From the NCBI RefSeq assembly GCF_033568475.1, contig NW_027331831.1, positions 3,844,001-3,908,000 on the forward strand: a stretch of 64,000 bases of DNA, written 5' to 3'. The stretch's first letter is position 1. The number at the start of each line of letters is the position of its first letter. This stretch comes from Henckelia pumila (lineage: Eukaryota; Streptophyta; Magnoliopsida; Lamiales; Gesneriaceae). Shown piece by piece: positions 1,701 to 59,941 of this stretch. A model generated the notes under the pieces. The model did no database searches. It saw only the letters and a list, made by a program, of their open reading frames with translations, and had not been told where the DNA came from. The translations under genes were made by a program, and so were the position numbers.

Positions 1701-2842
1701 TGTTAGAACCAAATGGGGGGATTTAGGTTCTATTGGCAACTTTAGCAATTTAAAGCGATTATGCAAATACGCAAGCGGAAGACTTAAAACAATTAATAAT
1801 AAGTGCGGTAAATAAATGCGTAATGTAAATAAAGCAGTAAAAGGGATAAGAGATGTTTATGAAAGTTCGACGATAAATCGTCTACGTCTCCCCTTCTTGG
1901 TTAAGATCGATTAACCAAGGATCCACTAGCACTTCGAACGAATTGGCTTTGATGGCTCCAAGATAGCCTTACAACTTGACACGATCACCGCGCCGATACA
2001 ACTCAACACTTGGCCGTAAGGGCTTCAAGGATAGCCACAACACTCACAACACTTGGCTTCACACTCAAGTGTTTACACCAACGATTTTCACAACCCCGGA
2101 TACAACTCGATATATGAATATATTTTGAAAGGTCAAAGGGGCTACAAATTGCTCAACAAATAGCTCAAATAATGCTTAAGAGGATTGAGAGACTTGAAGA
2201 TGTTGGGATGCTTGAAATGGTCTCGGAATGCCTCTATTTATAGCTGAAAATTCGGCATCGATCTGAACTTCCGTTCCTAGCATCGGAGCTTCCGAAATTT
2301 GAATTCTGAGTCACGCGGTTTGTACAGGATCGGAACTTCCGATCCCACTTCGGAGCTTCTGATCGGCGCATTAAATATGTTGTCGGGCAAAAGTCTTCCG
2401 AACAAGATTATCAGGCCGCCGTTGCAGATTGGAACTTCCGATCTATGATCGGTGCTTCCGATCTCGTCACTTCTAGCTTCCGTTCTGCTTCCGAACAATA
2501 TAAAATTCTTTGAAAATAGATCGGAGCTTCCGAACCTTGATCGGAACGTCCGATCGTCCCTTAGCTTCCGAAGGTCCTTCTGATCCTGATCAGAGGTTCC
2601 GAACTCCAATCGGAGCTTCCGAACTCGTAGCAGTATAAGTCTTTGAAATTTGTTTCTGATCTTGAATAAACTTGTACGCAATTGAGCCTTGAAAATTTTA
2701 ACTCTGTAATAAGCTCATTGTAAACATTAGTAACATTTTAACCTAGTTTTGTTAATCATCAAAACATAGACAAAAGGACCTTGTTAATGCATTAAAAACA
2801 TTAATCTCACAATCGAGATTTATATGCGTTTAAGGCGTAACA
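1701..2842 (-). repeat. 3' LTR of the copia element
   Basis: On the plus strand it begins TGTTAGAACC and ends GGCGTAACA, giving TG...CA ends. It matches 17315-18460 nearly throughout, with scattered substitutions and small indels. It contains the palindrome array and a TATA box at 2234-2243. The open frame at 2277-2681 is a translation of the palindrome repeats, not a gene. Confidence 0.93.
2234..2624 (-). promoter_or_regulatory. Palindrome array plus TATA box in the copia 3' LTR
   Basis: About ten imperfect copies of GATCGGA-N3-TCCGATC lie between 2260 and 2624, for example GATCGGAACTTCCGATC variants. They are followed in the direction of transcription by CTATAAATAG at 2234-2243. This is the U3 enhancer/core promoter position of the LTR. 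The role is inferred from position. Confidence 0.7.
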
Positions 2843-3026
2843 ATCTCCCCCTTTTTGATGATCACAAAACTTGGTTAAAAATAGAAAATAAAAATAGACA
2901 GTAAAAAGCATATAAGTATTTAAATTTCTTTTAAAAACTCCTTCTAAAATAAGCAACAAAGTTTTTAACAAATAAATAATTTTTACTCAATTTAACTGAT
3001 TAACCAATTAATTCTCCCCCTTTTTG
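2843..3026 (-). other. Two polypurine tracts upstream of the copia 3' LTR
   Basis: On the minus strand AAAAAGGGGGAGAT lies directly against the LTR (2843-2857). A second copy, AAAAAGGGGGAGAAT, lies at 3012-3026. The tract next to the LTR is the expected primer for plus-strand DNA synthesis. Repeated polypurine tracts at this place are a known Sirevirus feature. The DNA to 3142 is AT-rich and non-coding. Confidence 0.85.
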
Positions 3027-3142
3027 TGATAAGCAAAAAGTAATAATAAGTGAATAAAAGAGAATGAATATAAACTATTTTATTCCAATAGAATTTAAAT
3101 TTTACATAAGACCAAATACAACTTAAAATGCAAAATAAAAAT

Positions 3143-4360
3143 CTAAGAGTCATCATCGCGAGTCGGCGGAGGATAGCGAGAGGTGAACTCATCAAATCGG
3201 GTCTCCAAAGAAGCAACTCTAGCAGTCAACTCGGAAAAGTGAGTGTGCATGCTCGTCTCTATACGATGAAGTGTCTCGAATAGACGGTCGCTAGGGAATT
3301 GGTTTGCTGGGGTTGCAGGGACCTCAGGAGTTTGGAAAGGAACATCTTCAAGGTTGGCCGCAAAAGCCTCAAAACCGGAAGATGATGGAATATCAGAGTT
3401 AGGAGGACCAGTCGGAAAACCTTTGATTTGGATAGAGTGGGGAAGAGAGGAATATGGTAAATGAAAGGCAGAAATAGGTAAAAATCTAGAAAATACTCTT
3501 CCTCGATCTTCAACCCATCGAGAGTACACAGGATTCCAGGATAAATACATCCTGGTGATAGACTGATGGTTAAAGATGTGACTTGGTGGGATTTCAATAG
3601 AAGGTATCCCCTCAAATTCAACATCGAAATGACTCAAAATCCGGTTGATAAACCGGGCATAAGGAAAAGAAACCTTTTTCACCGTCTTTGCCGTGTGATG
3701 CATAGTCGGCATAACAAGGCGCGGAAGGTTAAAAGGTCGAGATGAAATGATATGAAATAGAATGTATAAATCTAAATATTTGCAAGTGGAGAGGTCTCCA
3801 CTGCGAGGAACGATAGAAGTGGTAATGAGTTTTTGAATGATTTGAAAATCAAGACAAAGACTCTTGAGGTGGATACGATCATCAGCAGCAATAGCTGGAC
3901 GACCAAGAATGGTAGAAAGTAACAACTCGCGATCAAAAGTAGGATCATTTTGAGGCCAGTTTTGCGAGAAGTATTCACCGGGTCCATTCCTGGGAAGATC
4001 AAACCAGGAGGACAAATCAGCAGAAGAAAAACGAATATGCCTGCCTTGAACAATCGTGGCAATGGTGACCTCACCATGACCTAATTCGAGTTCAAGATTG
4101 GCATAAAACTCGTGAATGAGAGAAATGTAGATGGAGTCAGGGACAGATGGAAGAAAGAAAGATTCCCACTGTTGAGCCTTGATAAGGTCCAACAGAAGGA
4201 GAAGAGACTGGGCCAAATAGGTGGAATCTAAGATACGACCAGGATGAATAGTACGGTCCTGATAGTCTTCGGGAATGGGCCTAGAGATAGCAGGTTGGGT
4301 CAGATCATGGGATTGGGCTTGGCTTGTAGTGGCTAAAGCACGACGGCGTTTGGATGCCAT
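3143..4360 (-). CDS. Third ORF of the copia element (envelope-like position; 'putative plant transposon protein' domain)
   Basis: An intact 405-codon frame lies between RNase H and the 3' LTR, where Sireviruses carry their so-called envelope-like gene. The N-terminus is basic (MASKRRR). Residues about 60-260 resemble the plant transposon protein domain: SLIHEFYANL, then VQGRHIRFSSADLSSWFDL, then a helical region with RPFNLPRLVMPTMHHTAK. The C-terminus is Pro/Ser-rich, followed by a short heptad-like segment (LFETLHRIETSMHTHF and LTARVASLETRFDEF) that may be a coiled coil. I see no convincing signal peptide or transmembrane helix, so an envelope role is not supported by the sequence. A related domain occurs in the ORF at 58808-59941. 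It has its own promoter-like module upstream. It is the only undamaged gene of this element, while gag and pol carry stops. The function is unknown. Confidence 0.8.
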   Translation of the reverse strand: MASKRRRALATTSQAQSHDLTQPAISRPIPEDYQDRTIHPGRILDSTYLAQSLLLLLDLIKAQQWESFFLPSVPDSIYISLIHEFYANLELELGHGEVTIATIVQGRHIRFSSADLSSWFDLPRNGPGEYFSQNWPQNDPTFDRELLLSTILGRPAIAADDRIHLKSLCLDFQIIQKLITTSIVPRSGDLSTCKYLDLYILFHIISSRPFNLPRLVMPTMHHTAKTVKKVSFPYARFINRILSHFDVEFEGIPSIEIPPSHIFNHQSITRMYLSWNPVYSRWVEDRGRVFSRFLPISAFHLPYSSLPHSIQIKGFPTGPPNSDIPSSSGFEAFAANLEDVPFQTPEVPATPANQFPSDRLFETLHRIETSMHTHFSELTARVASLETRFDEFTSRYPPPTRDDDS

Positions 4361-4437
4361 TTAGAGAGGTTTGGATCGGATTAAAGGGAGAAAAGAAGAT
4401 GATTTCTAGGTGTGAAAAATCGGAATGAGCGATCTGA

Positions 4438-4744
4438 TATTTATAGGGACGGAATCGATCGGAAGCTCCGATCTGCGATTGGACGTTCCGATCGTGCGGT
4501 CGACTTAAATCAAGACACGTGTCGATCGGAAGCTCCGAACGTTCTTCGGACGTTCCGATCCTGAAGCGGTAATTAATTTTAAGGCGGTGAAAATAATTCA
4601 AAAAGCCAGATAAGATGTGGATCGGAGGTTCTGATTTGTGATCGGAGGTTCCGATCTATGTTTTGGAGGAAAAAATTACCGCGTAGAATAGGAAATGGCG
4701 GGATAGGGATCGGAGGTTCCGATCCAGAATCGGTGGTTCCGATC
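4438..4744 (-). promoter_or_regulatory. Internal promoter-like module upstream of the copia third ORF
   Basis: Eight imperfect palindromes lie at 4457-4473, 4477-4493, 4524-4540, 4545-4560, 4620-4634, 4640-4656, 4708-4724 and 4728-4744. The first reads GATCGGAAGCTCCGATC. On the minus strand they are followed after 10 bp by CTATAAATA (4438-4446), and the ATG of the third ORF lies 78 bp further at 4360. The layout copies that of the LTR promoter, so separate transcription of the third ORF is a reasonable inference. The remaining DNA to 4947 is AT-rich and contains a purine-rich AAGGGAGAGC on the minus strand near 4905. Confidence 0.6.
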
Positions 4745-4947
4745 CACCTGAGGTAAAAATGCGATTTTTGACTCTTTAATTTTAAATTTTGCAAATTAAT
4801 TCTTAAACAGATAAATCATATAAAAATGTGAGCTTTATAATATTGAAAAATACAATTAATTTGTATTATCCAACATTAATTTGCTCGAATTTTAATATTA
4901 AGCTCTCCCTTAATATGACATTAATTTTAACTTATGTCTACAAGCGA

Positions 4948-7660
4948 TTACAACTCAATCATGCCAAGTTCACCACGCAAACGAATAAAAGTATTTTCAT
5001 CTAGTGGTTTAGTAAAAATATCAGCAATTTGATTTGACGTGTCAACATATTGAAGTTCAACTTCATTTCGTTCGATGTGGTCACGAATAAAATGATGACG
5101 AATGTTAATATGTTTGGTACGCGAATGTTGAATCAGATTCTTTGTAAGACAAATCGCGCTAGTGTTGTCATAGAAAATAAGGATTTTTGAAAAAGATACA
5201 CCATAGTCAAGCAATTGATGCTTCATCCAAAGAATTTGCGCACAACAACTACTGGCAGCCATATATTCGGCTTCGGTCGTTGACAACGCAACACAATTTT
5301 GTTTCTTTGAAAACCAAGAAACTAAACAATTTCCTAAAAAGAAACAGGTTCCACTAGTGCTTTTCCTGTCCACCTTATATCCACCAAAGTCGGCATCACA
5401 GTAAGCTATTAAATCAAAGAAAGAATTTTTCGAATACCACAAGCCGAGATTTGGAGTATTTGAAAGATATTTGAAAATGCGTTTTAAGGCGAACAAATGT
5501 GATTCCTTTGGACATGATTGAAATCGTGTACACAAGCAAACACTAAACATAATGTCAGGTCTACTAGCAGTAGCATAAAGTAAGGAGCCAATCATACTAC
5601 GAAAGGAAGATTGATCTACAGTTTTACCATTTTCATCCTTGTCGAGTCTGATTGCTGTGCTCATCCGTGTGGATGATGATTTTGTGTTCTTCATCCCAAA
5701 CTTCTTTAGAATTTCCTTGATGTATTTGCTTTGATTCACAAAGAACTCATCCTTGCACTGTTTGATTTGCAATCTGAGGAAATAGTTAAGTTCCCCCATC
5801 ATGCTCATCTCAAAGTGTTCCTGCATAAGCTTGGAGAAATCTTGACAGAGAGTTTCGTCAGTAGAACTAAATATTATATCATCAACATAAATTTGCACAA
5901 TAAAAAGATTATTTTTGACATTCTTGGTGAATAAAGTAATGTTGATCTTTCCTCGAAAAACCATTTGAAAGCAAGAAAGTAGACAGTTTATCATACCAAG
6001 CTCTAGGAGCTTGTTTCAATTCATACAAAGCTTTGTTTAATCTATACACATGATCAGGCAGTAAAACATCAACAAAGCCATCAGGTTGTTCAATATAAAC
6101 TTCTTCTTTCAATTCACCATTCAGGAAAGCACTCTTAACATCCATTTGAAATAACTTAAAATTTCTAGAGCAAGCAAAAGCAAGTAGCATGCGAATGGAT
6201 TCTAGTCTAGCAACAGGCGCATATGTCTCATCATAATCAATGCCTTCTTCTTGACTATAACCTTTCGCTACAAGCCTAGCTTTATTTCTAGTAATAGTGC
6301 CATGCTCATCAAGTTTATTCCTATAAACCCATTTAGTGCCAATAATAGATCTATCATGCGGCCTAGGAACAAGATTCCAAACATCATTACGTTTAAACTC
6401 ATTCAATTCATCTTGCATAGCAATAATCCAAGAATCATCTAATAAAGCATCATTAATGCACTTAGGTTCAACATGTGAAACAAAAGCAAGATGATTGCAA
6501 ATATTATTAATTGAAGAGCGAGTGGTTACTCCCTTCGAAGGACTTCCAATGATAAGATCCATAGGATGATCTTTGTGAAGCGTCCAATCCTTCGGAAATG
6601 GTGTTTCCTCAACAGAAACATCTAAATCATTTAGACTTGATGAAGCCATCTCTTCTTTGAGTAATTTTACATCATCATTGTTAGTGCGAGAGACTATTGA
6701 CATAGATTCATCAAATACAACATGCATAGATTCTTCAACAAGTAAAGTACGTTTATTAAAAACTCTAAAAGCCTTACTTGTTGTGGAATATCCAAGAAAA
6801 ATATCTTTGTCGGATTTGGCATCAAATTTGTCAAGGTTGTCCTTACCGTTATTATGTATATAGCATTTGGAACCGAAAGCCCGAAAGTATGAAATGTTAG
6901 GCTTTCTCCCTCTCCATAATTCATATGGAGTTTTCTTGAGTATTGGCCTTATTGATACACGATTGATGATGTAACAAGCAGTGTTCATTGCTTCAGCCCA
7001 AAAATATTTTGGTAGAGAATGCTCACATATCATGGTCCTCGCAATCTCTACGAGTGTCTTATTTTTCCTCTCAACGACCCCGTTTTGTTGAGGAGTCCTA
7101 GGACAAGAAAAATTGTGACCAATGCCTTTCTCTTCACAAAAAATTGTAAAACTCTCATTTTGAAATTCAGTTCCGTGGTCACTACGGATCTGTTTGATAG
7201 AAAGATTTTTCTCATTCTCAACATGTTTGACAAAAGTTTTAAAATAATCAAAGGCATCATTTTTGTGGGCTAAAAACAATGTCCATGTGAAACGAGAGAA
7301 ATCATCCACAATGACAAATGCATAAAACTTCCCTCCTAGGCTAGCGTTCCTCGAGGGACCACATAGATCTAGATGGAGAAGTTCAAGGGGCATAGAAGTT
7401 GATACAAAATTTTTGCTTTTAAAAGATTCTCTTGTATGTTTGCCAATTTAACATGCATCACAAACAGAATCTAATTTTAAATTAAGTTTTGGCATACCAA
7501 CAACTAAATCAAGTTTAAAAAGTTTTTCTATGGTACTAGGACCAACATGACCTAGTCGTCTATGCCAAAGAATGTTGTCATCAACATTCAAAGATACAAG
7601 GCTTTTGATATTTGATAAAGATAAATTATTTAAAGAAACCTTGTATACATTTTCACTTCT
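4948..7660 (-). pseudogene. pol: copia pol: integrase, reverse transcriptase and RNase H (damaged)
   Basis: Read from 7660 downward. The first part is the GAG-pre-integrase domain with LWHRRLGHV and the zinc-binding cysteines. It is interrupted by a TAA at 7448-7450 just after CDAC. The integrase core has its D, D and E in LHLDLCG, SDHGTEF and NGVVERKN. Next come the RT motifs [14 protein letters not shown] and, further on, YVDDIIF. RNase H follows with CDADFGG, STTEAEYMAAS and the ending HHFIRDH. The RT frame is broken by a one-base frameshift near 5950: the frame ending at 5909 and the frame beginning at 5994 overlap there. The C-terminus (KPLDENTF, then ELGMIEL) is typical of copia RNase H. 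The gypsy insertion separates this part from the protease. One stop and one frameshift are the only clear lesions here. Confidence 0.9.
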
Positions 7661-7665
7661 ATATC
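7661..7665. repeat. Left target-site duplication of the Ty3 element
   Basis: ATATC here is repeated at 15241-15245 directly after the right LTR. The copia reading frame joins across the two copies once the insertion is taken out. Confidence 0.93.
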
Positions 7666-9119
7666 TGTAGTAACCCAGATTCTATTTTAAGATAATAATA
7701 TATTAAACATGATTAAGGGTTAGTAATTTCGGAGTGTTATTGGACTTCGGAAGGGAATATGGACTTTTGATTTTGGGCCGGATCGGAAGCTCCGAACTCA
7801 GATCGGAAGCTCCGATCCTAGCCACTTCGGAAGCTCAGCGGAAGCACCAAGATCGGAAGCTCCGATCCTGGAACGGACGTTCCGATCTCCAGCTGCCAGC
7901 AATGCTCGATGACTCAGTCGCGAGTTTTGACAAGTATTGAACGTAGAGCAGATCGGAAGCTCCGATCGCCAGATCGGAAGTTCCGATCCCGACGTGTCAC
8001 ACATGCACGCAGTGAGCTGGATCGGAAGCTCCGATCCTGAAATCGGAAGTTCCGATCCTGGCCGGGAATTTTGCCTATAAATAGGGCTTCTCAGATTCAT
8101 TTCTAAATACGAATTCCCGAGTTTCTTTCTTCAGTTATATAGTTTGAGATATACACTTGAGGGCCCTATCGGTTATAATAGAGGTTCTGGAATAACCAAG
8201 GTGCGGTTATAGTCATCCGGGACTAGCGACTTCAAAGGGCTAACTACGGACGAAGGTATGGTCCGGGAATCTATTTAAGTTTTGGGAGTACTTATTAGCT
8301 TAGTTAAGGCTTATAGAATTTATGTAGTGATACGGTGAACTTTTGAATATAGGCTTGGAACCTAGGATCTTACTATACTTGAACTAACCTAGAGGTACAT
8401 ACACATTGACTGAGATTGCCAGCGGGTATACATGTTTATATGTTGCATTTATTTGGCATTATTATATGGCATGATGTATGATTTACCATTTTCTATACTC
8501 ATATGTCATGTGCATATACACGTTGAGCCTATACCTTGTTATACCTGACTATAGAGCCGCTCAGCTCTATACTCGATAGTCTGTCACTGAGAGTACTGCG
8601 ACGGCGGGGGCATTTATGTCTGTCTATTCTAGTGTACTAGACGAGTGTGGTTGCACCCAGAGGTTGATCCGCGCGGTGGCAGCACTCATGTGGCGCCGGT
8701 TCTGAGCATGACTTTTTAGATGACCCTGTACCAGTCATCATGTTGCATGCATTATATACATATGTTTACTCATGTCTATGTACTGGGCGTTAGCGCTCAC
8801 GTCCTAGTTGTTATCTTGGACACCTTATTCCATGGGACAGGTCGCAGGATGGACGGAGCCGGTAGTTCGAGGCAGGACTAGGGAGCCGGATCTTTTCAGG
8901 AGAATTTATACAGCATGATTTGTTTTAGTTGTTTACTGTTTAAGTATTTCGATTTGGTTGTATCACTACAGATTTAAGCCTGGATTATGTTACTAAGCTG
9001 ATATGTAAATTATGGTTTTGTTTCCGCATGTTTTACTCTGTTAAGTTATTTTGCTGTATTAAGTTTAATGCATGCTATTAGTTGCCAGTTACTAGGTGAT
9101 ACCATGCAAGGTCACTACA
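7666..9119 (+). repeat. 5' LTR of the Ty3 element
   Basis: Begins TGTAGTAACCCAG and ends GGTCACTACA (TG...CA). It is 1454 bp long and very similar to 13780-15240, with scattered single-base differences. It contains the palindrome array and TATA box at 7781-8084. The frames at 7734-7940 and 7798-8100 are palindrome translations. Confidence 0.95.
7781..8084 (+). promoter_or_regulatory. Palindrome array plus TATA box in the Ty3 5' LTR
   Basis: Eight copies are seen at 7781-7795, 7801-7817, 7851-7867, 7873-7887, 7951-7967, 7972-7988, 8020-8036 and 8041-8057. The perfect form is GATCGGAAGCTCCGATC or GATCGGAAGTTCCGATC. They are followed after 17 bp by CTATAAATAG at 8075-8084. The position is that of the U3 promoter. 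The same vocabulary occurs in the unrelated copia LTRs. Confidence 0.75.
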
Positions 9120-9123
9120 TTTT

Positions 9124-9135
9124 TGGTATCAGAGC
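9124..9135 (+). other. Primer binding site of the Ty3 element
   Basis: TGGTATCAGAGC follows the 5' LTR after a 4-base spacer. It is the usual complement of the 3' end of plant initiator tRNA-Met. Confidence 0.93.
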
Positions 9136-9229
9136 ATGCTTAGATTTTGGGATTAGTACTTGGGATTTAGAATTAGATTTGAGTAATTCTTGCGCATTTG
9201 GGATTTTAATGTGCAATTCTTTTCAGGAT

Positions 9230-10726
9230 ATGGCTGACGAGAGTCACGGTAGTGTTGGCCAGGGAGGTGGTCATCATCATCATCGTCACCGCCATCATGA
9301 TGATCATCATCGTCATCATGAGGGTAGACATCGCTACTCTATCAATAAGTTCATGCAAGTAGGACCGAAACCTTTGGTGGGAGGCGAGAATCCTGAACAG
9401 GCGAGGAGTTGGATGTCTAAACTCGAGAGTACTTTTCGTGCTTTCGATTGTACTGAGGATCAGAAATTGGAAGTTCTAGAATTTGTTCTAGAGGATCGAG
9501 CACGTTTTTGGTGGGATGCCAAAGCTGCTCAGGCAAGTACTGAGAGAGGACAGGTGACTTGGGGGGATTTCTGTCGGGAGTTCCAGAAACTGTATTTTCC
9601 TCCGGCTATTCGCCAAGCACGATCTATGGAGTTGCTTACTCTGAGGCAAGGATCAATGACTATTGATCAATATCAGCAACGATTTCTTGATCTGCTACCT
9701 TTCAGTCCTCATATCAATGAGAGTGATGCATCGAAGTATGATATCTTTCTACAAGGTTTGAACCAAGATATCTACTCTCAGGTTGTCATCTGTGATGACC
9801 CGGTATCTTTTGAGACTTTGGTGAACCGTTGCCGTCTTGTGGAGACTAGCAACAGGCGGGCACAGTTGATGATGCTAGGACAGTCTAGTGGATCTTTTGA
9901 GCCTCGAGCTCAATCTGTTGTGCAATCTGGACCTACGTCTTCTTCTACTCCTACTACTTCATCTGGATCTCGTGGTTCACGAGGTATGTTCCGTTTTGGG
10001 AAGAAGAAGAAGAAGGAGGAGTTTTGTAGTCACTATGGAGGGAAGCATCCTGCAGCTTCATGTCGGAGAGCTACTGGTGCTTGTTATATTTGCGGTCAGC
10101 AGGGACATCTGCGGAGAGATTGTCCTCAGCGCATGGGTTCTGCTAGTGGATTGGGATCACAGGTTGGATCTCAGGCTTCTATTGTTCCACGTCAGCAGCC
10201 AGCACCACAGAGTTCTTCTGGTTATCATCCCCAGACTCAAGGGCAGGTGTTTGCTCTGTCTCAGGAGCAGGCTACAGAGGGAAGTGATCACATGGTGGCA
10301 GATACCTTTATGTTATGTGGTATTCCTGCACTTGTATTAATTGATACTGGAGCATCACATTCCTTCATTTCTAGTCGCTTTGTTAAGAGACATAGATTAC
10401 CTTATGTATCAGTAGATATGGATTTATTTGTATCTACTCCGTTGAAGCAAGAGATAGTAACTAAGCGTCTAGTGATGGGTTGCCTTCTGGAGTTTGAGGG
10501 TAATGTGTTAGCAGCTAATTTGATGATATTAGCGATGACAGATTTTGATTGTATCTTGGGAATAGATATGTTGACTTTGTATCACGCTACTATGGATTTT
10601 TATCTGCGTCTGGTACAGTTTCATCCGGATGAGGGTGATAGCTGGTATTTTTATGGTGAGGGTGCGCGACCTCCGATGCCATGTCTTGGAGTCAGGTGGG
10701 GAGGGCTACCTCATCTATGCAGTTGA
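9230..10726 (+). pseudogene. gag-pro: Ty3 gag and aspartic protease
   Basis: The likely start is the ATG at 9230 (MADESHGSVGQ), although the frame is open further upstream into the LTR. After a histidine-rich stretch (HHHHRHRHHDDHHRHH) comes the retrotransposon Gag domain with ARSWMSKLESTFRAF, ARFWWDAK and FCREFQKLYFPP. A zinc knuckle follows, CYICGQQGHLRRDC (C-x2-C-x4-H-x4-C). Then comes the protease with its active-site signature LIDTGASHSFI and the second-half motif DCILGIDML. The frame is lost near 10690, where the RT frame continues in another phase, so the natural Gag-Pol joint is broken by a frameshift. The histidine-rich N-terminus may bind metal, but this is speculation. Confidence 0.9.
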
Positions 10727-13658
10727 TATGTCCACGAGTAGTACGGGTATTGATCAGTTACCGGTTGTCAGCGAGTTTCCTGATGTATTCCCTGATGAGA
10801 TTCCTGGTTTTCCTCCGGTGCGAGAGGTTGAATTTGGTATTGATTTAGTACCAGGAACTACGCCTATATCCCGAGCACCTTATTGTCTAGCACCTTCAAA
10901 GATGAGGGAATTGAAACAGCAGTTACAGGATCTGCTTGATAAGGGATATATCCGTCCGAGTGTTTCTCCATAGGGAGCACCTGTTTTGTTCGTCAAGAAG
11001 AAATATGGATCGATGCGATTGTGTATTGATTACAGGCAGTTGAATCGTGTCACCATCAAGAATAAGTATCCTTTGCCGCGGATTGATGATATGTTCGATC
11101 AACTACAGGGTACTTCTGTTTACTCCAAGATAGATCTGAGATCTGGTTACCATCAGATGTGGTACGAGACTCAGATATATCTACGACTGCTTTCAGGACC
11201 AGATACGGGCATTATGAATTTCTGGTGATGTCATTCGGTTTAACGAATGCACCGGCAGTCTTCATTAATCTGATGAATCAGATAGTATCTGGATAGATTT
11301 GTCATCGTCTTCATTGATGATATTCTTGTCTATTCTCATGACAAGGATGAGCATGCACAACATCTAAGGATTGTTTTACAGACGTTACGAGATAATCAGC
11401 TGTATGCGAAATTGAGCAAGTGTGAATTTTGGCTTGATCGGGTAGTGTTTCTCGGTCATGTGATTTCTAATGAAGGGATATCTGTTGATCCTAGTAAGAT
11501 AGAGGCAGTGCTGAACTGGTCTCGTCCGACGACGGTTGTTGAGATTCGTAGTTTCTTGGGTCTAGCTGGATATTACCGTCGGTTCATCGAGAATTTTGCA
11601 CAGTTGGCAAGGCCTTTGACTCAGCTTACTCGGAAAGATGTTTTCTTCATATGGTCCTCGAATTGTGAGGAGTCATTTTACGAGCTGCGTAGACGTCTTA
11701 CTACTGCACCTGTGCTAGCTCTACCTTCTGGATCAGGAGGTTATGTTGTCTATACTGATGCCTCTGGTCAGGGGTTAGGATGTGTTTTGACACAGCATGG
11801 ACATGTTATTGCCTATGCTTCTCGACAGTTGAAGACGCATGAGACTAACTATCCAGTGCGTGATCTCGAGTTGGCCGCCATTGTATTTGCGCTCAAGATT
11901 TGGAGGCATTATCTTTATGGTGAGAAATTTGAGATATTCACGGATCACAAGAGTTTGAAGTATTTATTCACTCAGGCGGAGTTGAATATGCGACAGAGAC
12001 GCTGGATGGATCTTCTGAAGGATTATGATTGTGAAATCAAATATCATCCAGGTTCTGTTAATCTTACTGCTGATGCCTTGAGTCGGCAGGTGAGACTTTC
12101 TGCACTTCAGACTAGTGAAGTATCTCATATGATTCAAGAGTGCTGTTCATTGAGTTTTACGCTCAAGCACAAGAAAGGGAGAAATGGGATTCGATTGTAT
12201 ACTATTCTATCTGAGCCAGCATTGTATTCTCGGATCAGAGATGCTCAGATATCTGATGTTAAGACTCAGCGTTTGGCACGTCTGGCCAATGGAGTTAATA
12301 CATCTGGATTTCATTTTCAGGCAGATGGTTTATTGTGTCTATCTAATCGAGTGGTTGTACCTAATGTTGCGGAGCTCAGGAACGATATTCTTTCTCAAGC
12401 TCACAAGAGTCGATTATCAGTTCATCCTGGTAGCATGAAAATGTATAAGGACTTGCGAACTAGATTTTGGTGGAAAGGGATGAAGAGGAGTGTGTATCAA
12501 TTTGTTTCGAGATGTTTGGTTTGTCAACAGGTCAAGGATGAACATCGACGACCAGGTGGATTACTGCAGAATCTTGAGATTCCCGAATGGAAGTGGGAGC
12601 ACGTAACTATGGATTTTGTCACCCACTTACCTATGACTTCACGTCAGTGTGATGCTATCTGGGTCGTTGTTGACCGTTTGACAAAATCAGCACACTTTAT
12701 TCCTTATAACCGGGAATATTCTTATGATCGCATGACACGTTTTTATATCCAAGAGATAGTGCGATTACATGGGATTCCAGTGAGCATAGTCAGTGATAGA
12801 GACCCGCGATTTACCTCACGTTTCTAGGGTAGTTTTCAGGAGGCGTTGAGTACCACTCTAAGTTTGAGCACTGCATATCATCCGGAGACTGACGGGCAGT
12901 CAGAGCGGACGATTCGTAAGCTGGAGGATATGCTACGTTCTTCTGTCATGGATTTTGGCTTATCTTGGCAGGATCAGTTACCTTTGATCGAATTTACCTA
13001 TAATAACAGTTATCATCGTAGTATTGATATGACACCTTTCGAGGCATTGTACGGTCGACGGTGTCGTACTCCGTTATTCTGGGATAAAGTCGGGGAACGA
13101 CAAGTCGAGGGTCCTGAATTGGTGCAGCAGATTGTAGACAAGGTAGATTTGATCAAACATATGATCAAAGTTGCTCAAGATAGACAAGCCAGTTATGCTA
13201 ATATTCGCCGCAGGCCACTTCAGTTTGAGCCTGGTGAATATGTGTTCCTTCGAGTATCACCTTTCAGAAAGGTGATGAGATTCGGCGTGAAAGGCAAGTT
13301 ATCTCCTCGTTTCATTGGGCCTTTCCAGATACTGGAAAAGATCGGAGATGTTGCATATCGTTTGGCGTTACCGCCAAATCTTTCCAGTATACATAATGTT
13401 TTTCATGTGTCGTTGCTTCGACAGTACATAGCTGATGAATATCATGTGATTCAGTCTACTGATATTCAGCTAGAGCCAGATCTGTCTTTTGTTGAACGAT
13501 CAATCCGTATCCTAGACAGGAAGGAGAAAGTTCTTCGGAACAAGACTATACCACTTGTGATGGTACAGTGGCAGCGCCGAGGCGTTGAAGAAGCAACTTG
13601 GGAAACTGAGAGTCGTATGCAAGCGGAATATCCTGAGTTGTTTGCTTTGTACTTTTGA
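10692..13658 (+). pseudogene. pol: Ty3 reverse transcriptase, RNase H, integrase and chromodomain (several breaks)
   Basis: RT begins with FPDVFPDEIPGFPP and contains [29 protein letters not shown] and the active site [12 protein letters not shown]. RNase H has [10 protein letters not shown], the catalytic Glu in RDLELAAI, and [10 protein letters not shown]. Integrase has the H2C2 zinc finger ([11 protein letters not shown], then CLVCQQVK) and the D,D-x-E core in [17 protein letters not shown] and ETDGQSERT. The C-terminus holds GPFQILEKIGDVAYRL and the chromodomain VQWQRRGVEEATWETE, known to guide chromoviruses to heterochromatin. Breaks: TAG at 10971-10973, frameshift(s) in RT near 11160-11220 and around 11290, and TAG at 12825-12827 inside the integrase core. 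The element cannot make a full polyprotein. Confidence 0.9.
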
Positions 13659-13779
13659 TTTACCATGTAAGATGTAATTACAGTTGTTGTAATAAAACAT
13701 GGTTTGATGTTTCATATTGTTATCTTGATTTTGTCTTTAGATGTTATTTCGCGGACGAAATATCTAAAGGTGGGGAGAA

Positions 13780-15240
13780 TGTAGTAACCCAGATTCCATT
13801 TTAAGATAATAATATGTTAAACATGATTAAGGGTTAGTAATTTCGGAGTGTTATTGGACTTCGGAAGGGAATATGGGCTTTTGATTTTGGGCCGGATCGG
13901 AAGATCCAAACTCAGATCGGAAGCTCCGATCCTAGCCACTTTGGAAGCTCAGCGGAAGCACCGAGATCGGAAGCTCCGATCCTGGAACGGACGTTCCGAT
14001 CTCCAGCTGCCAGCAATGCTCGATGACTCAGCCGCGAGTTTTGATAAGTGTTGAACGTAGAGCAGATCGGAAGCTCCGATCGCCCGATCGGAAGTTCCGA
14101 TCCCGACGTGTCACACATGCACGCAGTGAGCTGGATCGGAAGCTCCGATCCTAAAATCGGAAGTTCCGATCCTGGCCGGGAATTTTGCCTATAAATAGGG
14201 CTTCTCAGATTCATTTCTAAATACGAATTCCCGAGCTTCTTTCTTCAGTTATATAGTGTGAGATATACACTTGAGGGCCCTATCGGTTATAATAAAGGTT
14301 CTGGAATAACCAAGGTGTGGTTATAGTCATCCGGGACTAGCGACTTCAAAGGGCTAACTAAGGACGAAGGTATGGTCCGGGAATCTATTTAAGTTTTGGG
14401 AGTACTTATTAGCTTAGTTAAGGCTTATAGAATTTATGTAGTGATACGGTGAACTTTTGAATATAGGCTTGGAACCTAGGATCTTACTATACTTGAACTA
14501 ACCTAGAGGTATGTACACATTGACTGAGATTGCCAGCGGGTATACATGTTTATATGTTGCATTTATTTGGCATTATTATATGGAATGATGTATGATTTAC
14601 CGTTTTCTATACTCATATGTCATGTGTATATACGCGTTGAGCCTATACCTTGTTATATCTGACTATAGAGCCGCTCAACTCTATACTCAATAGTCTGTCA
14701 CTGAGAGTACCGCGATGGCGGGGGCATTTATATCTGTCTACTCTGGTGTACTAGACGAGTGTGATTGCACCCAGAGGTTGATCCGCGCGGTGGCAGCACT
14801 CATGTGGCGTCGGTTCTGAGCATGACTTTTCAGATGACCCTGTACCAGTCATCATGTTGCATGCATTATATACATATGTTTACTCATGTCTATGTACTGG
14901 GCGTTAGCGCTCACGTCCTAGTTGTTATCTTGGACACCCTATTCCATGGGGCAGGTCACAGGATGGACGGAGCCGGTAGTTCGAGGCAGGACTAGGGAGC
15001 CGGATCTTTTCAGGGGAATTTATACAGCAGGATTTGTTTTAGCTGTATAATGTTTACTGTTTAAGTATTTCGATTTGGTTGTATCACTACAGATTTAAGC
15101 CTGGATTATGTTACTAAGCTGATATGTAAATTATGGTTTTGTTTCCGCATGTTTTACTCTGTTAAGTTATTTTGCTGTATTAAGTTTAATGCATGTTATT
15201 AGTTGCCAGTTAGTAGGTGATACCATGCAAGGTCACTACA
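13780..15240 (+). repeat. 3' LTR of the Ty3 element
   Basis: Begins TGTAGTAACCCAG after the purine-rich tract and ends GGTCACTACA. It is 1461 bp, nearly identical to 7666-9119. It repeats the palindrome array (13895-14178) and TATA box (14189-14198). Confidence 0.95.
13895..14198 (+). promoter_or_regulatory. Palindrome array plus TATA box in the Ty3 3' LTR
   Basis: Same eight-site layout as at 7781-8084, with a few single-base changes (for example GATCGGAAGATCCAAAC at the first site). CTATAAATAG is at 14189-14198. In this copy it would drive transcription outward into the remaining copia protease region in antisense direction. Confidence 0.75.
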
Positions 15241-15245
15241 ATATC

Positions 15246-15620
15246 CTTTGAAATTTATGGATTTGTCAGATGTGAGTGATATAGTGCAGTGTTGGGGAGT
15301 GAATTTGACTTCATAACCTCTATCGCACAATTGACTTATGCTTAGTAAGTTATGCTTAAGCCCTTTCACTAGGAGTACATCATCAATCAAGCAGGATTCA
15401 GATATACCTATTAAGCCGATTCCTTCGATAACTCCTTTGCTGTTGTCTCCAAATGTGACAGTTCCTTTCTCCTTTGGTTTGATGGATTGGAGTAGCTCTT
15501 TGTTCCCGGTCATATGTCTAGAACATCCACTGTCTAGATACCATATGCTTGGAAGAACAGCTTTCCTATTTCCCTGCAAAAATTTATTTTGGTACCTTTT
15601 AGTTCTTTTGGGTCCACAGA
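15246..15620 (-). pseudogene. pol: copia aspartic protease (cut by the Ty3 insertion)
   Basis: Read from 15579 downward. WYLDSGCSRHMTG carries the DSG active site of copia proteases. It is followed by GTVTFGDNSKG, LIGISESCLIDDVLLVKGLKHNLLSISQL and YEVKFTPQHCTI, all characteristic of the copia protease and the segment before integrase. The frame reaches the Ty3 insertion at 15245 and continues in the copia part at 7660. The frame is not joined to gag: the DNA at 15621-15854 does not read through. Confidence 0.9.
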
Positions 15621-15854
15621 GTTAGAAAAAAGAAATACAAAATAGATTTCTAAGAGTTCAGTCTCTCATAGCGACATCATCGCCACTTTCCAAGAGTGCT
15701 CCCAGTAGTAGGTAGGGCTATGACCTCTTTAAAAACCTATTTTCTTGGACAGAGCAGCGTTCATCAGTAAGACCAGTCGCAAGTCAAGGCAGTTTAAACC
15801 GGTCTATGATGAACTCTCTTAGATCATGATCTCATAATGCCAACTGATGAGTTG
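15621..15854. other. Non-coding spacer between copia gag and protease
   Basis: About 230 bp with stops in all minus-strand frames lies between the end of Gag (TAA at 15855-15857) and the protease frame. It could be a small insertion or a decayed part of gag-pol. Weak inverted similarity of the ends (CTAAGAGT near 15650, ACTCTTAG near 15862) is seen, but no convincing target duplication. Confidence 0.5.
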
Positions 15855-17267
15855 TTAAGTACTCTTAGGCCTCCATTTCATATAACTTTTTTGATCATAT
15901 TGAAATCTCAAGGATCTACATTTATATCTAGCATGACCAATTTTACAACAATAAGAGCATGTAGGGGGTGATCTCATTTTTGCTTTAGCAATTAGATTAG
16001 TAAAGTCTATTGATTTCTTACAGTACCCTATTCCACCCTTATCAAAACTACATTTTTGCATGCTAAGTAAATTATTCAAATTATTACTACTAACATTGAA
16101 CTTATCAAAAGATTTTTCTAAGTGAGCTATGTCATCCTTTAATCTTAGGTTTTCATGCTCCTTAGTCTCTAATTCATGTTTGAGCTTTCTATTTTCTTTT
16201 CTAAGAGATTTAGCCATATCAAACATGTTTTTATATGCATGTAGAAGTTCGTCATAGGAAGGTACCTCGTCATCGTCGTCGGAGACGATGTCATCACTTT
16301 TAGCCATGAGGCAGATGTTTGCTTCCTCCTCGTCATCGTCGCTATCACTCCAAGTGGCTATGAGTGCTTTCTTCTTTCCTTTGTCAACTTTCTTCTTGAG
16401 AGGACACTCATTTGCATAGTGGCCTTGTTGTTGACAGTTGTAGCAGGTAACTTCTTTGTCCGTCTTATTTTTGAAGTTGTTTCCTCACATAAATCTTTTG
16501 AATTTTCTTGCAAAGAGTGCTATATCATCATCTTCATCTTCTTCTTTAGATTGGCTAGATAGAGCAATCCTCTTTGCCTTGATATCTTCTTTCTTTATTT
16601 CCTTTCTTGTAGACAATTCCAACTCATGGGTTTTTAGAGTTCCATGGAGTTGATCAAGGTCATAGGAAGCGGTGTCGCCTTTGTTGGATTCTATGATAGC
16701 CGTCCTCTTGGCATCCCACTCCTTGGGTAAGGCGCGTAGAGCTCTCCTCCACACTTGTTTGGTTGGATATTGTTTCCCAAGTTGGGCTAACTCATTGATG
16801 ATTTGAGTAAGACTTCGAAACATTGTGTCAACATCCTCATTGGTTTCCATCTCAAATGTTTCGTATTTGAGTTGGAGTAGATCGATCTTTGTCTCTTTGA
16901 CTTGATTAGTCCCTTCATGGCATATCTCCAACTTATCCCATATCTCTTTAGCGGATGAGAACATCGAGATCTGATTGTATTCGTTCATATCTAAGGAACA
17001 ATGAAGAATATTCATGGCTTTAGCATTTTGAGATATAAGTTTCATATCCTCCTTAGAAAAGTCGTCCATTCCCTTAGGAATTTTGACACCCTCAACCTCT
17101 TTAGTAGGTATGTAGGGACCTTTCACAGTAACCTTCCAAAGGTCATAGTCTACGGATTGGATATATAGGGACATTCGATTTTTTCAATATCCGTAGTTTA
17201 TGTCATTGAAAAGAGAAGGACGATTTGTTGATTGCCCTTGAGCATAGTCGCTCGCAAGATTTTCCAT
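15855..17267 (-). pseudogene. gag: copia Gag with two zinc knuckles and two in-frame stops
   Basis: Starting at the ATG at 17267 the frame reads MENLASDYAQGQSTNRPS and onward. It is interrupted by TGA at 17184-17186 (where related Gags have Trp) and by TGA at 16485-16487, and ends with TAA at 15855. All segments are in the same frame. The core is the UBN2-type Gag domain: RMSLYIQSVDYDLW, EIWDKLEICHEGTNQVKE, and FETFEMETNEDVDTMF-like heptads. The first knuckle CYNCQQQGHYANEC is at 16404-16445. An acidic coiled-coil region (LRKENRKLKHELETKEHENL) follows, then the second knuckle CSYCCKIGHARYKC. Two knuckles with a coiled coil between them fit the large Sirevirus Gag. Confidence 0.88.
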
Positions 17268-17300
17268 AAGAACCTTTTTGAAAATATTTTGAAAAGGGTG

Positions 17301-17312
17301 GCTCTGATACCA
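17301..17312 (-). other. Primer binding site of the copia element
   Basis: The minus strand reads TGGTATCAGAGC two bases after the 5' LTR, matching the initiator-tRNA-Met complement. It fixes the direction of the element. Confidence 0.93.
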
Positions 17313-17314
17313 CT

Positions 17315-18455
17315 TGTTAGAACCTAATGGGGAGGGAATTAGGTTCTATTGGCAAATTTAGCAATTTAAATCGATTATGCAAATACGCAAGCGGAAGACT
17401 TAAAGCAATTAATAATAAGTGCGGTAAATAAATACGTAATGTAAATAAAGCAGTAAAAGGGATAAGAGATGTTTATGGAAGTTCGACGATAAATCTTCTA
17501 CGTCTCCCCTTCTTGGTTAAGATCGATTAACCAAGGATCCACTAGCACTTCGAACGACTTGGCTTTAATGGCTCCAAGAATAGCCTTACAACTTGACACG
17601 ATCACCGCGCCGATACAACTCAATACTTGGCCTTAAGGTCTCCAAGGATAGCCACAACACTCACAACACTTGGCTTCACACTCAAGTGTTTACACCAACG
17701 ATTTTCACAACCCCGGATACAACTCGATATATGAATATATTTTGAAAGCTCAAAGGGGCTACAAATTGCTCAACAAATAGCTCAAATAATGCTTAAGAGG
17801 ATTGAGAGACTTGAAGATGTTGGAATGCTTGAAATGGTCTCGGAATGCCTCTATTTATAGCTGAAAATTCGGCATCGATCGGAACTTCCGTTCCCAGCAT
17901 CGGAGCTTCCGAAATTTGAATTCTGAGTCACGCGGTTTGTACAGGATCGGAACTTTCGATCCCACTTCGGAGCTTTCGATCGGCGCATTAAATATGTTGT
18001 CGGGCAAAAGTCTTCCGGACAAGATTATCAGGCCGCCGTTGCAGATCGGAACTTCCGATCTATGATCGGTGCTTCCGATCTCGTCACTTCGTAGCTTCCG
18101 TTCTGCTTCCGAACAATATAAAATTCCTTAAAAATAGATCGGAGCTTCCGAACCTTGATCGGAACGTCCGATCGTCCCTTAGCTTCCGAAGGTCCTTCTG
18201 ATCCTGATCGAAGGTTCCGAACTCCAATCGGAGCTTCCGAACTCGTAGCAGTATAAGTCTTTGAAATTTGTTTCTGATCTTGAATAAACTTGTACGCAAT
18301 TGAGCCTTGAAAATTTTAACTCTGTAATAAGCTCATTGTAAACATTAGTAACATTTTAACCTAGTTTTGTTAATCATCAAAACATAGACAAAAGGGCCTT
18401 GTTAATGCATTAAAAACATTAATCTCACAATCGAGATTTATATGCGTTTAAGGCG

Positions 18456-18460
<5 letters not shown>
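17315..18460 (-). repeat. 5' LTR of the copia element
   Basis: It is nearly the same sequence as 1701-2842. On the plus strand it starts TGTTAGAACC and ends GGCGTAAC followed by T where the other LTR has A, so the outermost base is mutated. Contains the palindrome array and TATA box at 17851-18242. Confidence 0.93.
17851..18242 (-). promoter_or_regulatory. Palindrome array plus TATA box in the copia 5' LTR
   Basis: About ten palindromes lie between 17877 and 18242, such as GATCGGAACTTCCGATC at 18044-18060 and GATCGGAACGTCCGATC at 18157-18173. On the minus strand they are followed after 16 bp by CTATAAATAG at 17851-17860. This is the promoter that would drive the element. Confidence 0.75.
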
Positions 18461-18506
<46 letters not shown>

Positions 18507-18860
18507 AATATGATAGATAGATATATCAATCAAAAGAAATGAACCTAATTTTTGCACTATCCATATTTACACTTCTTATAAAAGACATGTTTAGAATTAA
18601 TAATACACGGATACAGAACATCTTCGCATATATATATACACACACACACTAATTTTCATAATTTATACTTATTATATAATACTTGCACAACTTATAATAA
18701 CCGGTTTGATGTATCAAATTGCATCAAATTTCTTCTCATTTTACCTCAAAATTTAACTCGGCTCTTCTTTAAGTTAAATCTCAACTCTACACATCTTCTT
18801 TCACTCTAACATCTTTTTTAGTAATTACATTTTGGCGAGAAATTACTATATTTAGTAAAA

Positions 18861-18907
<47 letters not shown>

Positions 18908-19521
18908 ATAGATTGCTGGTGTAGATTTCGTATTGACTACAATGCTTATTTATTTTTTATAATTGATATTGTTGGAAAAGGAGATCGACGAGCTAGAGAC
19001 ATGTTTAGAATTAATAATACACATATACAAAACATCATCGCTCACATACATAATATATTAATTTTCATAATCTATACTTATTATATATATAATACTTGCA
19101 CACTTTATAATAACCGGTTTGATGTATAAAATTACATCAAATTTTTTCTCAATTTACCTCAAAATTTAACTCAACTCTTCTTTAAGTTATATCTCAAATG
19201 ACTAACTTATCCTATTTTTTTTTTTCTCTACACATCTTCTTTCACTCTAACATCTTTCCCAAATTTAATCTGGTTATAAATTCCTATTAAATTATTTACC
19301 CAAAATTTCAAATGTAGGTAAAACGACGTGAAATTAAGAGTCCAATAATAAGAAAAATGATTATATTATTACTATGGTTATAAAAATCATGATAATTATT
19401 TTATCACACGATACATGCGTGTCCATAGTTCACTAGTTTAGATAACATATCCACGTGCGAATCACGTGCTTCTCGTCAGTGCGTAGGAAGATAGAAAAAT
19501 ATAAATGGCCGGAGACAAAAA
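18461..19521. other. Right flank of the nested element: TA repeats and a duplicated block
   Basis: No gene. (TA)n runs follow the LTR (18459-18502) and lie at about 18868-18905. A block of about 235 bp (18581-18815, from GACATGTTTAGAATTAATAA to TCTTTCACTCTAACATC) is repeated at 18997-19250 with changes. The 82-bp segment shared with 1108-1189 lies between the two copies. The end of the stretch is the 3' flank of the MYB gene. Confidence 0.75.
18912..18993 (+). repeat. Second copy of the 82-bp flanking segment
   Basis: Matches 1108-1189 (see there). It sits between two copies of a 235-bp block. Confidence 0.85.
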
Positions 19522-58807: not shown

Positions 58808-59941
58808 TTAGGACTCGGTACCATCATCGTCAGACTCGTCATTTGAAGACCATGGTGGTGGCGGTGGATATGGCACATTGGTAGGAGGGAAATTCTGAGC
58901 GAGTGCCGCATTAAAATCATGCACATATGCCATGTGCTCTCGCATTCTCTTCCATTTCTTATGCATTTGCCTTTCCAAAGCATCGAAGCGGCCAGAATAG
59001 TCACTTCCTTGAGCAGCATGTGAAGGAAGTGCTGTTGACGGATGAATCAGTGGAGGGGCAGGCTCAGACGGCTGTGGTGGGGGCTGTGCAATATCTGTCT
59101 GCTGTATCTGCTTATGTTTATCCCTTTTCAATGGCCCGACAAGAACAATAGGAGCACGAGTAGGATGAAGTTGCTCAGTGGCATCCCAAGTCACTCCAGC
59201 ATAACAACAAAGATCCGTAATCAATGAAACATGGACTAAGCTGCTAAGATGAGATTTTTTACTAGTAGCGTAAATGGATTGCTGAAGCACTTTACCCGCA
59301 TTAACGGTCCTTCCTGTGACTATGCAGTACACCAAACTAGCCCTTTCCACCGTAATTTCAAAAGTGTGACCCGATGGCAACATGCGTGCGGCGACAAACT
59401 CATGCCAATTATTGGCGTCCCGATTAAGAAATCTGGAGTACAATGTAATAGGGACACCTTTCTTATTCAATTTCCATTCGGCACCCTCAATACAAAGTGC
59501 CTGTAGCACGGCAGCGGCTGGGAACTCATTCTCAGTGAAAAGCTGATAATCGTCAAATGCAACGTTCGACATTTGATACATGGCGTTGATAGTTTGATCA
59601 TCAAACGCCACCATTTTACCTCGCACTTTCACTTTGTATTCATCATGTTTCACCATTAGATTGGCATAGAACTCCCGAACAATAGACATGACAGCCTCGG
59701 AAGGTTGTTTGACGAATGCTTGCCAATTACGTCGCCGTGCTTCAATCAAAGTTTTAGCGTTTAAGTCCCTCATATCCATTCCCCGCTCCTTATGCATACT
59801 TTTGAGCAACAATTCAACAAAATTTGCCACCGCGACAGCATTCCAAAACCTATTTTTATCAAAAGATGGTTGTCCCGAAGACGACGAGGCCGATCCTTTT
59901 CCTTTTGTTTTTGGTGGCATCCTTACACTCAATTCAACCAA
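58808..59941 (-). CDS. 'Putative plant transposon protein' domain ORF
   Basis: An intact 377-codon frame. Starts at 59941 (MVELSVR) and 59920 (MPPKTKGKGSASSS) are both possible, and the second looks more natural. Residues about 75-260 match the plant transposon protein domain: SIVREFYANL, KVKVRGKMVAFDDQTINAMYQM, LYSRFLNRDANNWHEFVAARML, then FEITVERASLVYCIVTGRTV and LITDLCCYAGV. A Pro-rich linker follows, then a basic helix (FDALERQMHKKWKRMREHM), and it ends with an acidic tail (SSNDESDDDGTES). The domain is common in retrotransposon third ORFs and in unclassified elements, and its biochemical role is not known. The same core occurs in the copia third ORF at 3143-4360. The ORF lies between two palindrome arrays and next to a 314-bp tandem array, and is the only intact gene of the block. 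Confidence 0.75.
   Translation of the reverse strand: MVELSVRMPPKTKGKGSASSSSGQPSFDKNRFWNAVAVANFVELLLKSMHKERGMDMRDLNAKTLIEARRRNWQAFVKQPSEAVMSIVREFYANLMVKHDEYKVKVRGKMVAFDDQTINAMYQMSNVAFDDYQLFTENEFPAAAVLQALCIEGAEWKLNKKGVPITLYSRFLNRDANNWHEFVAARMLPSGHTFEITVERASLVYCIVTGRTVNAGKVLQQSIYATSKKSHLSSLVHVSLITDLCCYAGVTWDATEQLHPTRAPIVLVGPLKRDKHKQIQQTDIAQPPPQPSEPAPPLIHPSTALPSHAAQGSDYSGRFDALERQMHKKWKRMREHMAYVHDFNAALAQNFPPTNVPYPPPPPWSSNDESDDDGTES

Follow-up and report, generated by a model that had tools for sequence, protein, structure and literature searches.

Background

Palindromes known as RM boxes stand before the TATA box of the long terminal repeats (LTRs), and before the envelope-like (env-like) gene, of Sireviruses, and the paper that describes them (Bousios et al. 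2010, PMC2829016) raises the hypothesis of an internal promoter. Here we report comparable arrays in a 64,000-nucleotide stretch of the plant Henckelia pumila (assembly GCF_033568475.1, contig NW_027331831.1, positions 3,844,001 to 3,908,000; hereafter the window), where they occur in both LTRs of a Sirevirus-type copia element, upstream of its third open reading frame (ORF3), and in both LTRs of a Ty3 element nested within it. From its anatomy, the array is probably an enhancer that is read by a shared dimeric factor upstream of an RNA polymerase II promoter in both superfamilies. The likeness to the RM boxes extends to high-copy, CpG-rich palindromes with a CGG-CCG core before the LTR TATA box and the third gene, and CGGA-N3-TCCG cores, as in the Henckelia arrays, can be read in OPIE-2, PREM-2 and HOPIE (PMC2829016). 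However, the RM boxes are reported there as Sirevirus-specific within the copia set, whereas in Henckelia a Ty3 group carries the module too. According to that paper, no promoter was conclusively identified before ENV, while the Henckelia loci have a TATA and first-ATG layout and arms conserved between subfamilies. The paired spacing of the Henckelia arrays has no counterpart in the accessible part of that text.

Related features are known in other elements. In some groups of Del (Tekay) elements the LTR has a CpG-rich variable 5' region, as in our elements; the eudicot Del group is without a CpG island there, unlike the Henckelia Ty3, and the word "palindrom" is absent from that text (Cruz et al. 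2014, PMC4029996). The maize palindrome CACCGGACNNNGTCCGGTG, with the core CGGAC-N3-GTCCG, is likewise common to different transposon classes, but PMC10760457 places it in Copia elements and Helitrons, with maize Ty3 elements generally lacking an obvious peak, in contrast to Henckelia. Of the module set out in a preliminary description of this DNA, the part in the copia element, both in the LTR and at the third ORF, is already known in kind (PMC2829016). What looks new is its presence in a Ty3 group, as searches of the open-licence literature brought up no account of it in Ty3 elements.

Organization of the arrays

The copia element lies on the minus strand (1701..18459), with its 5' LTR at 17315..18459 and its 3' LTR at 1701..2842. 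Five palindrome pairs are found in each of these LTRs (17877..18242 and 2260..2624), followed by the TATA box CTATAAATA (17852..17860 and 2235..2243), and four pairs (4457..4744) precede the internal CTATAAATA (4438..4446), all on the same strand. The Ty3 element (7666..15240, plus strand) has four pairs in its 5' LTR (7666..9119; array 7781..8057, CTATAAATA 8075..8083) and four in its 3' LTR (13780..15240; array 13895..14171, CTATAAATA 14189..14197), all on the plus strand. All five arrays reported in the preliminary description are present, except that it had extended the second Ty3 array to 14178. It had also placed the arrays 10-17 bp before the TATA box in the direction of transcription, and the gaps between the last palindrome and CTATAAATA agree with this: 16 bp in the copia LTR, 10 bp in the ORF3 upstream region and 17 bp in the Ty3 LTR. 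The anatomy supports its view of one promoter-like module common to the copia LTR, the copia third ORF and the Ty3 LTR. Allowing up to two mismatches, the window contains 40 palindrome matches, whereas 20 dinucleotide shuffles averaged 0.1 and never exceeded 1; several palindromes carry one to three arm mismatches.

Palindrome positions are given as start coordinates along the direction of transcription, with the C of CTATAAATA as the reference point. The starts are -33, -54, -101, -121, -200, -220, -293, -313, -362 and -382 in the copia 5' LTR; -27, -47, -94, -114, -190, -210, -278 and -298 upstream of ORF3; and -34, -55, -103, -124, -204, -224, -274 and -294 in the Ty3 LTR. All 13 pairs (five in the copia LTR and four in each of the other modules) are spaced at 20-21 bp, and the first three pairs counted from the TATA box begin at -33/-101/-200 in the copia LTR, -34/-103/-204 in the Ty3 LTR and -27/-94/-190 in the ORF3 promoter region. 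By tests devised after the layout had been seen, such pairing under random placement has P values of 9e-5, 3.1e-4 and 3.5e-4 for the three modules, and the similarity of the first three pairs has P 0.008 for copia against Ty3 and 0.057 and 0.09 in two comparisons with the ORF3 promoter region. In the copia LTR as in the Ty3 LTR, AGC and then AGT form the centres of the two pairs nearest to the TATA box. Array bins contain 7-15 CpG per 100 bp, compared with 1-7 in the other bins examined. Words of the TGACG, ACGTG or TGACTCA type occur one to three times in each of the five modules examined, and may be sites of a shared second factor.

Genome-wide distribution

The Henckelia pumila genome (884,658,702 bases) was searched with the same motif. 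The exact form GATCGGA-N3-TCCGATC occurs 51,958 times, whereas 1.3 occurrences are expected from the base composition of a 200-kb sample and the reversed-pattern control gave none. Array-then-TATA sites, defined as TCCGATC followed by CTATAAATA within 5-25 bp, number 11,504 + 7,545 = 19,049 (controls 5 and 7). The opposite order gave 14 + 16 = 30 (controls 0 and 2), with about 24 expected by base composition. Random placement relative to TATA boxes, which the preliminary description had raised against its own proposal, is at odds with 19,049 matches in one order and 30 in the other. Chance origin of the palindromes was rejected as well, since the window shuffles, the genome-wide counts and the array-TATA order are all far from random.

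One TATA box may count twice in these figures: the 100 matches listed correspond to 78 TATA boxes. Among these listed matches, which come from the first 3.02 Mb of contig C1, reading by eye assigned 52 boxes to a family B-like and 16 to a family A-like type of Ty3 LTR, five to type C (core TCCGATCGATGCCTATAAATA), one to type D and one to a copia-LTR-like type, with three others. We infer that most array-TATA sites in the genome belong to Ty3 LTRs. A further LTR type was seen in L021 (C1:32502-35518), with CGA/CGG centres, a looser array and the core TCTCTGCCTATAAATA. The ORF3 promoter core has 260 matches in the genome at up to three mismatches. Outside the plant, a search for the two-palindrome pattern matched 12 records among prokaryote genomes and eight among viral contigs, each at a single site.

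ORF3 and its upstream module

ORF3 (3143..4360, minus strand) encodes 405 amino acids with a Transposase_32 domain (PF20167, E 2.7e-17), and its ATG lies 86 bp after the internal CTATAAATA. A genome search with ORF3 gave 103 scored matches from 2,184 first-look candidates, 45 of them at 91-100% and 58 at 80-82% identity. In the 12 best matches, the first being the window's own, seven to ten palindromes stand upstream at near-fixed offsets in every case, although in L056 they are shifted by about 20 bp, and the 3' LTR array follows downstream in 11 of the 12. At ten of these loci CTATAAATA is exactly 86 bp before the ATG and at two a one-base variant takes its place; at none of the 12 does an ATG fall between CTATAAATA and the ORF3 start. 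L055 has a second array upstream of the ORF3 locus (100-320 of the reverse complement), mostly with GTTCGGA- or CTTCGGA-type arms, perhaps belonging to another element inserted nearby.

The upstream layout of the close copies is also found in L061 and L062, from the group at 80-82%. The window ORF3 differs from these two by a nonsynonymous rate (dN) of 0.11 and synonymous rates (dS) of 0.55 and 0.54, giving dN/dS of 0.20 and 0.21, which indicates that ORF3 is under purifying selection between the subfamilies. When L054 is compared with L061 and L062, the arms have changed at 4/111 and 5/111 positions and the spacers at 41/160 and 43/160 (Fisher 6.0e-7 and 6.4e-7), while none of the nine TATA positions and 18/76 and 20/76 of the TATA-to-ATG stretch have changed. 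Arrays at all 12 loci, arms conserved over spacers and a dN/dS of 0.20 together suggest that ORF3 probably has its own array-driven promoter. With purifying selection on ORF3 and a conserved promoter-like region, how and why Sireviruses express their env-like gene becomes directly testable.

Regarding the protein, the highest 19-residue hydropathy is 1.22 in the window copy and 0.99 in L061 and L062, so that on this simple scale there is no transmembrane-like stretch, which disfavours an envelope reading. Both subfamilies retain a basic KRRR close to the N terminus. Fold prediction gave no confident structure (predicted local distance difference test, pLDDT, 36.2), no relative was found in the PDB at E up to 1, and a search of viral contigs found no relatives of ORF3, the Ty3 reverse transcriptase (RT) or the copia pol. 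The protein search returned one relative, P0001 from Henckelia pumila, and P0002 was added when a two-row alignment was used as query. P0001 is a public gene model in which a Ty3 RT runs into the terminal part of an ORF3-like protein, probably through misprediction. The copia internal promoter-like region carries the same control sites as the LTR, as far as its anatomy goes. Foamy viruses have an internal promoter before the 3' gene together with a transactivator. The copia element resembles them in its putative second, internal promoter before a 3' gene; the foamy virus transactivator and ORF3 are unrelated proteins.

Ty3 families and module replacement

In order to describe the array carriers, we used a 200-kb sample (C1:100001-300000), taken regardless of array type but after matches had been listed there. 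It contains nine arrays of at least three palindromes, eight with GATCGGA arms and one of the GTTCGGA type, plus three clusters of one or two. Each of the nine arrays lies within or next to an LTR of a Ty3 copy, and the RT of these copies shares 79-96% identity with that of the window Ty3. Ty3 family B, the LTRs of which were recognized by like arrays flanking the element on both sides, has runs of two to four palindromes with the TATA box about 7 bp after them. An RT tree of 13 rows, drawn from copies of the Henckelia pumila genome only, with a bootstrap that had not settled and a row of 28% identity without a sure place, separates four array-less copies (49-63% identity) by a 100/100 branch. 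The array-bearing Ty3 copies are likely to form one clade, judging from this tree. Within the 200-kb stretch, the RT fragments at 189.7 kb (71% identity) and at 197.5 kb (74% identity) have no array of their own, and no array stands at the copia-protein matches (34-38% identity).

With an RT of 95% identity, the Ty3 copy at 226 kb falls among the array-bearing copies, yet the single LTR seen is without a GATCGGA array. Positions 1-63 and 728-1454 of the window Ty3 LTR are matched in this copy at 92% and 90.6% identity, and between the matched parts there is an unrelated 910-bp module (L041, C1:220001-230000, 4991-5900, minus strand). This module contains repeats resembling CTCGGGTCGG as well as a CTATAAATA of its own, and the LTR backbone around it is that of Ty3 family A. 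The 264 kb compared contained no second copy of the module. The replacement is a directly seen case of one U3 module swap within a Ty3 family. The copy at 296 kb (L048, C1:296745-296911), a family A relative, keeps positions 1-63 and 400-1454 of the window Ty3 LTR, and its array is partly homologous to the window Ty3 array (75.6% over 86 bp). Five of its six marked palindromes have GTTCGG-type left arms and none has GATCGGA, the arms being of the GTTCGGA/TCCGAAC type. The replacement at 226 kb and the arm change at 296 kb indicate that Ty3 control regions turn over as modules and that array arms can change in concert; as the swap illustrates, evolution can exchange the control regions of LTRs like cassettes.

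Function and origin of the module

Combining these observations, we propose that pairs of CGGA-N3-TCCG palindromes, about two helical turns apart and directly before the TATA box, would act as the upstream enhancer of an RNA polymerase II promoter. One sequence-specific factor would read all arrays, probably as a dimer on each palindrome and cooperatively on each pair. The Sirevirus-type copia element would use the module twice, in the LTR for genomic RNA and internally as a separate promoter for ORF3, and a group of closely related Ty3 chromoviruses in this genome, carrying a like module in the U3 of their LTRs, has probably reached thousands of copies. The proposal draws on the anatomy, order, spacing and abundance of the arrays, on arm-over-spacer conservation, on purifying selection on ORF3 and on the U3 swap, and from these features promoter activity and a binding factor, either a host protein or the ORF3 product, are postulated. 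One DNA-binding factor may switch on both kinds of retrotransposon. If so, bursts of the two superfamilies would be coupled, and an array acting in cis would help to explain which elements fill the genome.

Several observations weigh against an enhancer read by a dimer. Between L054 and L061 or L062 the centres, which a dimer should not need, are conserved as well (2/24 and 1/24 changed). Among the 12 close ORF3 loci, palindrome cores (0.051) show no extra conservation over spacers (0.055), and in the 3' LTR arrays of 11 loci the values are 0.065 and 0.056. The difference is modest between the window Ty3 and the 190-kb copy (arms 7/112; spacers 23/161 plus 33 gaps), and the other layout of Ty3 family B means that the fixed arrangement in pairs is not general. 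The 12 close copies also show no clear constraint on ORF3 itself (median dN/dS 0.61 over 66 pairs); weak constraint within close copies is expected if most differences arose after insertion. Spacers and core promoters, compared between copia and Ty3, count against the proposal too. From the TATA box outward, the spacers have P values of 0.02, 0.16, 0.73, 1, 0.07, 1, <0.0005 and 1, the one strong case reflecting extra half-sites and the core spacer being weakly similar. The core promoters of copia and four Ty3 copies gave P 0.04-1.0 upstream and 0.005-0.16 downstream of the TATA box, with one of four and two of four comparisons, respectively, under 0.05. This weak similarity means that exchange between the superfamilies is not demonstrated, and common ancestry of the copia and Ty3 spacers, tested in the same way, is not supported, as they are mostly at chance.

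Once the palindromes are masked, the copia and Ty3 LTRs have no significant similarity (best E 0.26), in keeping with the preliminary description, which saw no other common sequence between them. Convergent recruitment, in which both superfamilies independently grew arrays of sites for one host factor, is a serious possibility, though we put it somewhat short of even chances: it agrees with the mostly chance-level or nearly chance-level similarity of spacers and core promoters, with layouts that differ between Ty3 families and with the different CGG-CCG palindromes in Sireviruses of distant plants (PMC2829016), so that such arrays arise or change easily. It does not readily account for the first three pairs lying within 4 bp of equal TATA distances in the copia and Ty3 LTRs (P 0.008), for the AGC-then-AGT centres of both TATA-proximal pairs or for half-sites at matching distances. 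Under the proposal above, the module may have moved from one superfamily to the other instead of originating independently in each. A local gene conversion from this copia to this Ty3, suggested by the nesting of one in the other and raised in the preliminary description, was rejected, because the spacers are mostly unlike those of this copia, both Ty3 LTRs carry the array, it recurs in other Ty3 copies elsewhere and there are about 19,000 array-TATA matches genome-wide.

The factor might instead be encoded by ORF3, binding the arrays of its own promoter and of the LTR in a self-activating loop, with the Ty3 elements using ORF3 in trans; the loop would resemble that of the foamy virus internal promoter and transactivator. 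Its own array and TATA box, purifying selection, the lack of a transmembrane-like stretch and the KRRR kept in both subfamilies would fit, but the low pLDDT (36) and the empty PDB search do not, and the other PF20167 gene of the window (58808-59941) has no such palindromes nearby. To our knowledge, PF20167 has no known DNA-binding role. Sireviruses without an env-like gene also have LTR palindromes (PMC2829016), and we consider this alternative doubtful. Its fuller version is unlikely: the env-like ORF3 would be a nuclear DNA-binding activator of its internal promoter and LTR, and a group of Ty3 chromoviruses would have captured the array and exploit ORF3 in trans, hence outnumbering copia (260 ORF3 promoter cores against 19,049 array-TATA matches). 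Were it true, the GTTCGGA-type array of one Ty3 copy would represent a change of factor specificity. For LBD transcription factors as a candidate, the literature search gave no useful result.

Other explanations dispense with a binding factor. As proposed for maize Sireviruses, the palindromes could fold into hairpins, of RNA or of DNA, and so supply small RNAs and silencing. Compared with shuffles that keep single-base composition only, folding is stronger in the Ty3 array (z -8.8) and the ORF3 array (z -6.1) and modestly so in the copia LTR array (z -2.8), and maize palindromic LTR regions are small-RNA hotspots (PMC5311732, PMC10760457). Hairpins leave the strict position before the TATA box, the pairing and the internal copy before ORF3 unexplained, which makes them a rather unlikely basis for the arrays. 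Selection of the arrays as CpG islands for methylation control, their sequence being otherwise unimportant, agrees with the CpG density of the array bins noted above; it is improbable, as CpG content alone would require far less conservation of the arm sequence, the three-base gap and the spacing.

Identity of the elements and other features of the window

The LTR pair of the copia element has a Kimura two-parameter distance (K2P) of 0.025. Its Pfam matches (Retrotran_gag_2, rve, RVT_2) form the copia domain set, with integrase before RT. The Sirevirus marks given in PMC2829016 are a polypurine tract AGGGGGAG adjoining AT/TG at the 3' LTR, present in several copies, and the junction CA/A(T or G)TGG-TATCAGAGC. 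Here AGGGGGAG occurs in two copies on the minus strand (2845..2852 and 3014..3021), the first with the AT/TG junction exactly in the Sirevirus form, and the junction of the 5' LTR with the primer-binding site, CA/AGTGG-TATCAGAGC (17301..17309, minus strand), fits as well. The element also has the CGG-CCG palindromes that mark Sireviruses, both before the TATA box of the LTR and before the third gene.

The nested Ty3 is flanked by the target duplication ATATC (7661-7665 and 15241-15245), and its LTR pair has a K2P of 0.030. The domain order RVT_1, RT_RNaseH, integrase fits a chromovirus, with a weak C-terminal chromodomain match (E 2.3e-4, 21.4 bits against the Pfam cut-off of 25.1). Its LTR start TGTAGTAACCC and end GGTCACTACA are near, but not equal to, the printed Del forms (U3 end TGTAACACCC and the type A U5 end). 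It is likely, given these features, to be a Tekay (Del) chromovirus.

The second PF20167 gene (58808-59941, minus strand; E 7.3e-41) is 21% identical to ORF3 and is followed by tandem repeats of about 300 bp from about 60.4 kb on. A piece of a glycerol-3-phosphate transporter gene in the window matches a Henckelia pumila protein at 100% identity, with 92% of the query covered. Outside the copia element, there is a 112-bp direct duplication (18673-18784 and 19086-19197), the copies being 92% identical.

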